A stretch of DNA of 64,000 nucleotides from Aureococcus anophagefferens (Eukaryota > Sar > Pelagophyceae > Pelagomonadales > Pelagomonadaceae), in contig NW_008705577.1 of assembly GCF_000186865.1 (NCBI RefSeq), positions 21,443-85,442 on the forward strand, given 5' to 3'. A model generated the notes under the pieces. It searched no databases, was not told the DNA's origin, and saw nothing but the letters and a program-made list of their open reading frames with translations. Positions within the stretch are counted from its first letter, which is position 1. Each line of letters opens with the position of its first letter. Positions 300 to 24,676 of the stretch are shown here, piece after piece. A program made the position numbers and the translations under genes.

Positions 300-1289
300 A
301 TGGAGTGTCCGGCGTGCACCTTCGTCAATGCGCCCGGCGCGCCGGCCTGCGAGATGTGCTCGACGAAGCTGGAGACGGGCCGCGACGAGCCGCGCGTCTG
401 CGCCCACTGCACGCTCGAGAACGAGGCCTCGGCCGCGGCCTGCGTGGCGTGCGGAAGCTGGTGGTGCGACCGCTGCACGGCCTGCGTGCTCGCGTCGTCG
501 GCGACCTGCGACGTCTGCGGCTACCCGGACGAGCCCGCGGGCGACGACGCGGGAGACGCCGCCGCGGAGGGCGCCGCGGAGGACGGGGCGGCGCCGGGCC
601 CGCCGAACCTGCCGCCGTTCTCCGCGGCGGCCGTCGCCGACGGCTACCGACCGCGGCGCGTCGAGAAGGCGCTCGCCGCCGCGCCGCGGGCCGACGTCGC
701 GGCCATCGTCGACGACCCGGCGCGGTTCGTCGCGCTGTGCTGCGGCGAGGTGCCGCCGGAGCCCGAGCCCGAGCCCGAGCCGGAGCCCGAGCCCGAGCCG
801 CCCGTCGCCGCCGCCGAACCCAGCGGCGACGACGACGGCGCCGACAGCGGCGACGACGACTACGCGGAGGCGGACGCTTTGATCGCGATCGCGGGCCTCC
901 CGAGCACGAAGTGCCCCTGCTGCCTCGCGCCGCGATTCGCCACCGTCGCCCTCATGCGGGCGCACGTCGTCGCGAAGCACGTCTGGGACCAGAAGGCGCG
1001 GGCGAAGATCCGGGACGCGCGGCCGCCGCGGCCGAAGAAGAAGCGGAAGCGGTCGCCCCGGAAGGTCGTCGAGGTCCCGAGCGACGACGATGAGGTCCCG
1101 AGCGACGACGACGAGGACGAGGTCCCGAGCGACGACGACGACGACGACGACGACGAGGCGGGCGCCGACGTCTCCGGCGGCGCGCCCCGGCGGCGGTCGT
1201 CGCGCGCGCGGACGGCGGTCGTCGACGAGGCCGCGTGGGCCGAGGCCGTGGCCGCCGACAGCGACGACGCGGGCGACGAGGGGGATTAA
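300..1289 (+). CDS. RanBP2-type and C2H2-like zinc-finger protein with acidic tail
   Basis: A 329-residue protein. I chose the ATG at 300 because the protein then begins MECPACTF, directly at the first zinc finger; the frame is open upstream to 240 but that part is low-complexity. Residues about 3-23 and 32-70 carry repeated CxxC pairs of the RanBP2/Npl4 type (CPACTF, CEMC, CAHC, CVAC, CDRC, CDVC). Such fingers commonly bind ubiquitin or RNA. A short helical stretch follows, then a Glu-Pro dipeptide run (about 756-800). A C2H2-like finger comes next (CPCC ... H ... H), followed by a lysine-rich basic patch and a C-terminal tail with three VPSDDD repeats. Likely nuclear because of the basic patch (inference). 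The function cannot be named more closely. Confidence 0.75.
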   Translation: MECPACTFVNAPGAPACEMCSTKLETGRDEPRVCAHCTLENEASAAACVACGSWWCDRCTACVLASSATCDVCGYPDEPAGDDAGDAAAEGAAEDGAAPGPPNLPPFSAAAVADGYRPRRVEKALAAAPRADVAAIVDDPARFVALCCGEVPPEPEPEPEPEPEPEPPVAAAEPSGDDDGADSGDDDYAEADALIAIAGLPSTKCPCCLAPRFATVALMRAHVVAKHVWDQKARAKIRDARPPRPKKKRKRSPRKVVEVPSDDDEVPSDDDEDEVPSDDDDDDDDEAGADVSGGAPRRRSSRARTAVVDEAAWAEAVAADSDDAGDEGD

Positions 1290-1385: not shown

Positions 1386-2567
1386 TTAGGGATCGTCGGA
1401 CTCCGGTTCAGCCTCGCTGCTGTCCGAGTCTCCGTCACCGACATCAGACCGCACATCTGATGGATAATAGCCGCTAGCGACTCCGAGAACCTCTGCGGCA
1501 TAGGCGACGGACTCGCTGGTGACCGTGAATTGTGCCACTGGTTTTGGAGGAAACGATGGCGGTGTTTCATCAACCAGATGCGCGGCCCAGGCAGATGCAA
1601 CGTTCTCAGCCATCGTCTCATCGTCCGTTTCGTTCACGCTCGAATAGTCGTCATCGTCGTCTGGAGGCAGATACGAGTGAGAGAAATCAGGTCCATGCAG
1701 AATGCAGATGTGTTTGAGAAGAGCTCCAATGGCGCCAACGCAGTAGCAGCAGACTATTTCCATCGCAGCCGCGGTAATGCCAATGACACCGGCTCGACGT
1801 GCAATGCGCCGCGCAATGCGCGCAAGCTCAGAGCTCGAGAATTCTGGGACAAGTTCGCTCAGAAGTGATTTACGAAGATGCCCATGCTTCAGCGGAAAGA
1901 AGCATTGATTAACCTGCTCAGATAAATGAGGCAAAGTTTCAGTGAAGAAATTATTGATGTAGAATTCCAACCGTTTTCTATCATATGAGCTTGTTCGAAG
2001 CATCACACCAAAATGCAGCTGAATATCTACTGCGCCCACGGTGCCACCGGCCTCCGACAGCGATGGTATTGAAAAATCGTCGTTCGCTTCGGGTGCTAAC
2101 GAGCGGTGCAACATGATAAGATTCGAACAGTCCAAAATTTCGCCCATCCACGTTTCCACGACCTCGCACAGAGCCAGGACGGCGCCGTCAGTGAAACGAG
2201 GTCGCGGATCGTCATTCAGGCAGCAGCGGTTATAGAGGGACTCGACGACCCGTCGCATTTTGACGGTGCCGAGGACGCTGCGAAAAGCCACTTCCGTGTT
2301 TTTTTGGAGGCGTCGCACCGCACGGATAGCGGGGAGTTCCAGGACGCCACGCCTGCCTGGTAATCTGGTCAGAATATTACAAGGAAGGAGAAGCGCGTCG
2401 CCGTAGCCGATGGGCTGAGGCTCCCAGAGCGCATCCTCGCCGAGCGCCTGACGCCACGCGACGCACACGAGCTCGCACCGCAGGAAGTCGGCGCCGTTGC
2501 GGACGTAGTGCAAGACTTCGCGCAACACATCGGGCGAGCGTAGCACCGTCGACGGCAACGCTGACAT
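1386..2567 (-). CDS. F-box protein fused to diverged histone H3-like and H4-like folds
   Basis: A 393-residue protein. Residues about 10-50 read as an F-box (LREVLHYV ... LVCVAWRQAL ... ALWE). Residues about 77-190 follow histone H3 in order. The alphaN helix has AIRAVRRLQKNTEVAFR against H3 LREIRRYQKSTELLIR. The alpha2 region has RFTDGAVLALCEVVE and SNLIMLH against RFQSSAVMALQEASE and TNLCAIH. The alpha3 start has VDIQL against KDIQL. Residues about 247-292 follow H4 (ARRIARRAGVIGITA against IRRLARRGGVKRISG). After an acidic insert, residues about 346-370 (FTVTSESVAYAAEVLG) match the H4 end KTVTAMDVVYALKRQG. Both histone-like parts lack tails and carry inserts before alpha3. The gene is visibly AT-richer than its neighbours. 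An F-box implies SCF ubiquitin-ligase membership (family knowledge). Whether the histone part binds histone chaperones or histones is inference. Confidence 0.75.
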   Translation of the reverse strand: MSALPSTVLRSPDVLREVLHYVRNGADFLRCELVCVAWRQALGEDALWEPQPIGYGDALLLPCNILTRLPGRRGVLELPAIRAVRRLQKNTEVAFRSVLGTVKMRRVVESLYNRCCLNDDPRPRFTDGAVLALCEVVETWMGEILDCSNLIMLHRSLAPEANDDFSIPSLSEAGGTVGAVDIQLHFGVMLRTSSYDRKRLEFYINNFFTETLPHLSEQVNQCFFPLKHGHLRKSLLSELVPEFSSSELARIARRIARRAGVIGITAAAMEIVCCYCVGAIGALLKHICILHGPDFSHSYLPPDDDDDYSSVNETDDETMAENVASAWAAHLVDETPPSFPPKPVAQFTVTSESVAYAAEVLGVASGYYPSDVRSDVGDGDSDSSEAEPESDDP

Positions 2568-22895: not shown

Positions 22896-24676
22896 CTACT
22901 GCTCCTGCATGGAGCGTCGGATGGCCTCCTGGATCGCCTCCTCCTCCGTCATGGGCGTGCCGTCCTCGTTCACGTTCGGCGGCGGCGCCGCGGCCGCGCC
23001 CGGCGCGGCGCCGCTCGGCGGCGCGCCGCCGTTCAGGGCCGCGAGGGCCGCGGCGAGGTCCGGCGGCGGCGCGCCGGGCTGGCCCGGGAGCGCCCCCGGG
23101 AGCGCGCCCGGCGGGAGCGAGCCGAGGAGCTGGCGCGCCATCTCCGGATTCCGCTGCAGCTCGCCGAGCGTCTGCTGCATCTGCTGCTGGAGCTGGGGGT
23201 TGTTCTGGACGAGCTGCATGACGCGCTGCATCTGCGCCGCGTCCGGCGCGCCGCCGCCGAGGCCGCCGAGGCCGCCGAGGCCGCCCAAACCGCCGAGGCC
23301 GCCCGGCGCGCCGCCGCCGCCGCCGCCGGGCATGCCGCCGAGGCCGGCCATCTGCTGCTGGAGCATCTGGGCCATGGCCGGATTGCGCTGCACGGTCTCC
23401 ATGGCGCGCTGCATCGCCGCCGGGTCCGCCATCATCGCGTTGACCTGCTCCATGAGCGCCGGGTTCGACCGGAGCGCCTGCATCATGCCGCCGAGGCCGC
23501 CCGGCGGCGGCGCGCCGCCGAGGCCCAGGCCCGCGAGGCCCCCCGGGGGGAAGCCCGCCGCCGCGACCGGCGGCGGCGCGGCCGCGGCCTCGATGGCGTC
23601 GAGGCGCGCGGACAGTGCGCGCTCCGCGGCCGAGAGCGGGCCCCACGCGGACGCCGACGGCGTGATCTGCAGCATGGCGTCGGCCTCGCGGAAGCCCGCC
23701 TCCTTGAGGACGTCGAGCGCCCCGTCGTGGCCCACGCACTTGCGCTGGAAGGCCGCGTTGCTCAGCTTGAGCTTCTGGTACTTTTCCTCCGTCGGGTGGT
23801 GCACGACGTTCGACAGGATCTTGTGCAGCGTCTTCAGCACCTCCGTGCCGCCGGACGCCTCGGCGCGGGCGACGGCGCGCGACAGGGGCGTCGCGGCGGG
23901 CACAGGGATGGTCGGGATGACGTGCGCGGCGACGGGCGTCGCGACCGGCGGCGGCGGCGCGGGCGCGGGCGCGGACGACGCCTTCGCGCCGACGAGCAGC
24001 ACGGTCAGCCCGTCCTTCGTGACGCCGTAGTCGCTCAGGGGCTTGGCGTCGTCGGCGAGCAGCTTGCCCATGAAGACGAAGCGGGGCTTCGCGTCGACGT
24101 TGACGGCCGCGCGGAGCGCGCCGACGGTCGCCGTCTTCGGCAGCGTCACGGACGTCGGCGCCGCGGAGCCCGACGCCGCCTTGACCGTGAGCGTCATGGT
24201 CTCGCCCTTGGGCCCGACGAGGCCCCCGTTCTTCTCGAGGGACCCGTTGAGCGCGTCCTGCACGTTGCCGAGGATCGGCCCGAGCAATTTGCCGAGCGGC
24301 GTCGCGAGCATCTCCCCCGGCAGGCTCAGGATCCACGCGGGCACGCCGCGGCCGCAGAGGAAGTTGAGCACGACGTCGCTGAAGTTGTTGCAGTTCTTCG
24401 TCCAGAGGTCGTAGGACTCGGCCGTCCAGCTCGCCGCGATCGAGCACAGGAACTCGTCGAGCTCGTCCTCGGTCTTCGAGGTCTCGCCCATGGCCTCGAC
24501 GCGCACGGGGCCGTGGCCCATGGCCTCGACGACCTGGGTCGGGTCCTGGGCAGCTCCACCGTCTTGTTGTCGAGGAGCGCGCCCATGGACGCGCTCATCT
24601 CTTTGGCCGCGCCCCCTGAAAGGTCGTATATGGCGAGCTCGACGGGCGCCATGTGCTCGTTGCGGCGGTGTGCCAC
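22896..24676 (-). CDS. PPPDE (DeSI-type) peptidase-like protein with UBL, PUB, STI1 and UIM domains; frame interrupted
   Basis: The N-terminus (MAPVELAIYDLSGG, ATG at 24676 or 24652) and the stretch ESYDLWTKNCNNFSDVVLNF are the two ends of a PPPDE/DeSI deSUMOylating or deubiquitinating peptidase, with the catalytic Cys in NCNNF. The part between, which should carry the catalytic His (WHT-like motif), is missing. The frame changes at 24546-24559, where removing 14 bases (GTGGAG...CCCAG) restores it. Downstream follow a ubiquitin-like domain (about residues 154-226), a PUB domain (about 265-345; EVLKTLHKILSNVVHHP), two ubiquilin-like STI1 regions with Gly/Pro-rich linkers, and a UIM-like end (EEEAIQEAIRRSMQEQ). 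The whole suggests a ubiquitin/p97-linked shuttle. Whether it is catalytically active is doubtful as assembled. Confidence 0.72.

Follow-up and report, generated by a model that had tools for sequence, protein, structure and literature searches.

An Aureococcus anophagefferens F-box protein predicted to carry H3-like and H4-like histone folds in one chain

Double histone folds and the F-box gene

The double histone folds listed in a review from 2026 are archaeal, viral and bacterial forms, Son of Sevenless (SOS), ABTB2, SPT3 and high-identity animal forms, and the words F-box and ubiquitin are absent from its main text (PMC13088155). The gene considered here lies on the minus strand of a 64,000-nucleotide stretch of Aureococcus anophagefferens DNA (contig NW_008705577.1; the whole stretch is called the window), and its product almost certainly joins an F-box, an H3-like fold and an H4-like fold in a single chain. 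No F-box/histone-fold fusion was found in the openly licensed literature among the matches listed, also when Aureococcus and histone-domain terms were used, and a paper on F-box domain capture mentions histone twice in its available text, both times on other matters (PMC12062965).

The nearest analogue is ABTB2 (Cca3), a BTB protein in which a double histone fold is likewise joined to a domain of a cullin-ligase adaptor type. BTB domains of the ABTB2 type act as CUL3 adaptors. ABTB2 differs in being an animal protein with BTB and ankyrin domains instead of an F-box, and the folds of Cca3S resemble H2B and H2A, whereas those of the present protein resemble H3 and H4 (PMC13088155). The histone domain of SOS has limited sequence likeness to histones and no F-box (PMC13088155), and the Marseillevirus and Melbournevirus doublets, also devoid of an F-box, package virion DNA (PMC13088155) and have the order H4-H3 (PMC12297534). 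SPT3, a transcription coactivator subunit of SAGA, lacks an F-box as well. With canonical H3 and H4 the family shares fold-core sequence; these are separate chains with basic tails, whereas the family proteins are fused, tail-less, acidic and interrupted by inserts in the L2 loops. The gene and its parts are as follows.

1386..2567, minus strand: whole gene, one exon, 393 amino acids (ATG-to-stop open frame; relatives across nearly the whole length)
2424..2534, minus strand: F-box-like domain, residues 12-48 (Pfam PF12937, E 3.4e-5; predicted helices 12-22 and 28-42)
1995..2339, minus strand: H3-like histone fold, residues 77-191 (hhalign to H3, phmmer against the Protein Data Bank (PDB), AlphaFold)
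2049..2099, minus strand: L2-loop insert of the H3-like fold, residues 157-173 (hhalign comparison; net charge -4 over 157-176; predicted local distance difference test score (pLDDT) below 50 at 158-173)
1836..1994, minus strand: helical linker between the folds, residues 192-244 (helices in the AlphaFold model)
1695..1835, minus strand: H4-like α1-L1-α2, residues 245-291, with the RRIARRAGVIGIT motif (hhalign to H4; PDB matches)
1539..1694, minus strand: acidic L2-loop insert of the H4-like fold, residues 292-343 (net charge -12 over 292-345; pLDDT below 50 at 294-343)
1464..1538, minus strand: H4-like L2 strand, α3 and YY end, residues 344-368, FTVTSESVAYAAEVL (collinear H4 match; strand 348-349 and helix 351-361 in the AlphaFold model)
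1389..1463, minus strand: acidic C-terminal tail, residues 369-393 (net charge -9 over 367-393)

The H3-like and H4-like folds

The H3-like half can be recognized from the window protein alone. Its phmmer search against the PDB gave 142 sequences to E 10, the best with E 0.029 (residues 79-156); the best 60 of the 142 all fall at about residues 79-157, and 59 of them are named H3, the remaining one, a "histone domain-containing protein", being H3 by its aligned letters. In Smith-Waterman alignment with the H3 core of its own genome the protein scores 79 (z 12.4; 0/300 shuffles as high), and the relatives, which form a main and a distant subfamily, behave alike within the former: all seven tested main-subfamily members match H3, with z from 3.4 to 12.4 and at most 3/300 shuffles as high. 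Compared by hhalign with a three-sequence H3 profile, the core without its L2 insert reaches 40.7 (E 5.7e-7) over 84 columns from αN to α3, against at most 13.4 for H4, H2A and H2B and at most 19.7 for 60 column shuffles; with the insert included, the score is 41.1 (E 7.1e-6). The AlphaFold model places αN at 77-91 (low confidence), α1 at 101-115, the L1 strand at 124-125, α2 at 127-157, the L2 strand at 177-178 and α3 at 179-191. In members of the main subfamily the insert is 16-18 residues long, against 21-23 in the distant subfamily.

The H4-like half is weak for the window protein alone and, as judged from sequence comparison, clear once relatives are included. Against the H4 core of its own genome the window protein scores 38 (z 2.7; 6/300 shuffles as high), while z spans 2.7 to 8.3 in the same seven members, all of which match, with no more than 6/300 shuffles as high. 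The H4-like core without the acidic loop gave 29.8 (E 3.2e-5) with one H4 sequence in hhalign; H3, H2B and H2A gave 13.6, 11.5 and 8.2, and 60 shuffles did not exceed 18.4. When the loop is kept in, H4 is matched in two separate but collinear pieces, of 26.6 (E 0.0015) and 13.0, the second of which is by itself at shuffle level (highest 19.3 among the six printed shuffles per histone, of 20). A PDB search with the H4-like core of six members returned 86 matches to E 10, the best with E 0.0035, and the best 60 of the 86 are all H4-named, one being labelled also H2A. Helices are modelled at 245-258 and 266-290, with a strand at 263-264; the L2 insert comprises 50-65 residues in the main subfamily, with a conserved core LPP-DDDDYSS-ET-DD.

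H2A and H2B are not matched in this way (window protein z 1.0 with 49/300 shuffles as high, and z 1.9 with 21/300, respectively), and in none of the seven members does either of them rise above shuffles (highest z 1.2 for H2A and 1.9 for H2B); the fold-core sequence is thus type-specific for H3 and H4 in the main subfamily. The AlphaFold model contains two histone folds of the paired-fold type, i.e., two helix-strand-helix-strand-helix folds predicted to pair within one chain as in a double histone fold, and in structure comparison it matches histone pairs formed by one chain, namely the Melbournevirus doublet, SOS and the M. kandleri histone. For the distant subfamily, a model of low confidence yields matches of this kind as well. 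A sequence-only reading of this DNA had proposed an F-box joined to a tail-less H3-H4 pair, with the H3 and H4 core patterns in that order; profile alignments and predicted structure bear it out, the histone folds being present in the model and the real H3 and H4 scores lying above those of shuffled sequence. The L2 inserts, which split both folds, had gone unmentioned there. The reading's functional suggestion, that the chain could mimic an H3-H4 dimer to bring histone chaperones or variants to an SCF ligase, is a possible role, so that its interpretation is supported in part. The protein is one conserved chain in which the histone tails are lost and the L2 inserts and the tail are acidic.

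The F-box domain

The F-box-like region noticed in the same reading corresponds to PF12937, which scores 24.0 bits in the window copy for a cut-off of 24.3. The cut-off is exceeded by P0003 (26.1 bits), P0005 (28.5) and the own-genome copy L003 (28.2), while P0008 (18.2) and the distant copy P0012 (21.4) are below; in all, the domain matches 8/9 aligned family members, and the ninth is presumably the fragment P0009, which lacks the N-terminus. The Pfam scan of the window protein to E 10 gave the F-box alone, with no ankyrin repeats and no BTB domain. P0004 and P0011 begin with an identical MYND/HIT-type finger sequence, identified by finger profile matches, ahead of the F-box.

Copies and constraint

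The gene belongs to contig C17, one of the 86 contigs of a 49-Mb genome whose core histone, cullin and ASF1 genes mark it as eukaryotic. A protein search found eight records of relatives and a profile search ten in all; seven of the ten have 91-100% query coverage and 41-98% identity, and the other three are fragments. The own genome contains two more close copies, L002 and L003 (58% and 50% identity), and a distant copy of the same layout, L004 (P0012; 27% identity over the best-matching stretch), which has three further records, for a total of 13. Among these, P0002 (98%) and P0013 (100%) are near-copies of own-genome genes, as are P0003 and P0007, which only very short branches separate from L002 and L003. 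The longest contig per record is 0.8-3.6 kb in 11/13, and 5.7 and 19.7 kb in the remaining two. The distant copy also has a C-terminal motif, about SVL-ANL--GMTANEMI-FF, in common with two otherwise different own-genome proteins (L027 and L030).

Over the whole gene, the three close own-genome copies show synonymous divergence (dS) of 0.64-0.77 and nonsynonymous divergence (dN) of 0.36-0.43, with dN/dS 0.49-0.58. The F-box has dN 0.09-0.11 and dS 0.29-0.34 (window versus L002, 0.09/0.29), and H4 α1-α2 dN 0.19-0.28 and dS 0.57-1.07 (0.19/0.89). The linker is the least conserved part, with dS above 1 and 10-30% identity over residues 193-235, and the H4 α3 stretch of the window copy is under little constraint (dN 0.32 and 0.45, dS 0.31 and 0.51). 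The dS of the F-box part (2400-2567, compared with L002 and L003) is low relative to 0.6-0.8 for the whole gene; together with the values of H4 α3 (0.31-0.51), this points to possible conversion or recombination between copies.

Conserved residues and possible function

Residues were placed on H3 and H4 by ungapped, hand-set blocks, the end of H4 α2, two residues shorter, being uncertain. The places of H3 Arg83, His113, Asp123 and Leu126 and of H4 Arg35, Arg36, Arg39 and Arg40 are retained; His154 and Asp181 of the window protein correspond to H3 His113 and Asp123. When both subfamilies are aligned, in ten rows, Arg155 and Asp181 never vary, and His154 occurs in at least 90%. H4 Lys44 and Arg45, which we take to be DNA contacts, are replaced by Ile and Gly in the window copy, P0004 having Arg at the second place, and H3 Cys110 and Arg129, the latter presumably an ASF1 contact, by Ile and Gly. 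The basic N-terminal tail and positive charge of H3 and H4 are absent: the window protein has a net charge of -21 and pI 4.86, with an F-box where histones have the basic tail. Among 15 sequences, fragments included, 12 have a net charge within -27 to -16 and the others -11, -9 and +1, the last being an N-terminal fragment.

As a tentative proposal, the protein could be an F-box substrate receptor that uses an intramolecular H3-H4 pseudodimer as its recognition module, with the ligase ubiquitylating the docked proteins. The F-box would bind SKP1 and join a cullin-RING ligase; the two folds would pair by the usual handshake, leaving the H3-like α2-α3 surface (His154, Asp181) and the end surface of the H4-like fold free for docking. 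Docking would be open to the usual holders or partners of an H3-H4 dimer, which are free histones or chaperones such as ASF1, and the acidic inserts, in the place of DNA, would either prevent contact of the module with DNA or serve to bind basic histones. Ubiquitylation of the docked protein would then amount to quality control of soluble histones or their carriers; the offer of a fake histone partner may thus be a way of tagging histones or the proteins that carry them. A more specific version, rather unlikely as it stands, has the receptor pose as its target's natural partner: the pseudodimer would join a genuine H3-H4 dimer by way of the retained residues of the H3-H3 bundle, or replace the dimer on a chaperone, and the decoy complex would be ubiquitylated.

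The proposal of a substrate receptor is favoured by the F-box, by the type-specific H3 and H4 halves of the main subfamily, by the predicted double histone fold, by the constraint among close copies, by the conservation of Arg155, Asp181 and His154, and by the charge of -21 with inserts of -4 and -12. ASF1, cullin and core histone genes are present in the own genome. Precedents are ASB9-CUL5, linked to histone ubiquitylation (PMC12914668), and SCF-Dia2, a SKP1-cullin-F-box (SCF) ligase acting in silencing, alongside which the chaperone Rtt106 is named (PMC3405993).

Several points weigh against it. SKP1 was not found in six frames of the own genome with two Pfam models, for which exon splitting may be the cause; the binding partners and SCF membership are predicted roles; and ASF1 binding in particular is doubtful because of the Gly and Ile at the places of H3 Arg129 and Cys110. 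The F-box of the window copy is 0.3 bits short of the Pfam cut-off and its part of the AlphaFold model has very low confidence (helix pLDDT about 30-41), while the 23 codons of H4 α3 give no sign of constraint when the window copy is compared with L002 (dN 0.32, dS 0.31), and the distant subfamily is without a significant H3 or H4 match by sequence alone. Against the histone assignment as such, the profile of the whole family gets no further than E 0.062 for H3 in the PDB, and PF00125 has no match in the Pfam scan of the window protein and matches 1/9 family members, at 17.1 bits for a cut-off of 26.4. The eight members missed by PF00125 and the distant subfamily would also suit a chance resemblance in the helical C-terminal domain of an F-box protein, which is nonetheless highly improbable given type-specific profile scores far above 60 shuffles per half and structure matches to histone pairs.

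Alternatively, the double histone fold may be a stable scaffold or generic protein-binding module, as in SOS with its intramolecular or signalling contacts, and the target of the F-box may be unrelated to chromatin. This is possible, if doubtful: both halves of the main subfamily retain sequence specific to H3 and to H4, down to the H3 αN region and the Arg-rich H4 α1, and type identity would be dispensable in a mere scaffold. A chromatin protein, whose pseudodimer would enter nucleosome-like or tetrasome-like particles and bring the ligase to DNA-bound sites, could be suspected from the retained places of H3 Arg83, His113 and Asp123 and of the four H4 arginines, and from the nucleosome particles formed by viral doublets (PMC13088155); the Ile/Gly at H4 Lys44/Arg45, despite the Arg of P0004, the acidic inserts in both L2 loops, the lack of tails and the net charge of -21 make it unlikely.

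The family indicates that a single chain can take up H3 and H4 themselves, beyond generic histone folds, for use away from the nucleosome. Should the mechanism of the proposed substrate receptor hold, it would offer a genetically separable handle on the policing of free histones or of the chaperones that carry them, together with a natural blueprint for directing a ligase to histone complexes through mimicry of a partner; if the decoy version is true, a eukaryotic double histone fold of the H3-H4 type would serve as a reader of degradation substrates.

Base composition and origin

GC content at third codon positions (GC3) is 0.60-0.69 in all four own-genome copies, versus 0.90-0.98 for five histone genes of the same genome and 0.96-0.98 for five window genes with Pfam support. 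Each copy is a single-exon GC dip flanked by high-GC3 frames, the flanking frames compared being putative genes with GC3 above 0.88, and some flanking DNA being masked. Among the window frames of similarly low GC3, four were scanned and none of the four had a match over a cut-off. These sequence features would fit either a foreign origin or retroposition combined with weak codon selection. An origin from a virus or another lower-GC donor, with a role in host-virus conflict such as disabling viral or host histones, would account for the low GC3 and the single-exon dips; it seems distinctly improbable, as three pattern scans, which can miss distant relatives, gave no relative in IMG/VR viral contigs, the Melbournevirus doublets have the opposite order noted above, and 0/49 matches in a viral structure library reach E 0.001, the best two being H2B/H2A doublets.

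Other observations

A viral contig (L046) encodes at 1205-2477 an H2B-H2A-H3 chain in one frame. L009 and L043, close together on contig C50, are a truncated H3 and an H4 changed at normally fixed positions, and look like decaying copies; L015/L016 (contig C16), possibly the centromeric H3, is an H3 variant whose tail is distinct and which has an additional in-frame stretch that may be an intron. In the window, the convergent neighbour gene at 300-1286 (plus strand) has matches to a double zinc ribbon and a RanBP2-type finger (PF12773, PF00641), and a gene of ubiquitin-pathway type at 22899-24521 (minus strand) carries a PPPDE peptidase (PF05903) followed by a PUB domain (PF09409).
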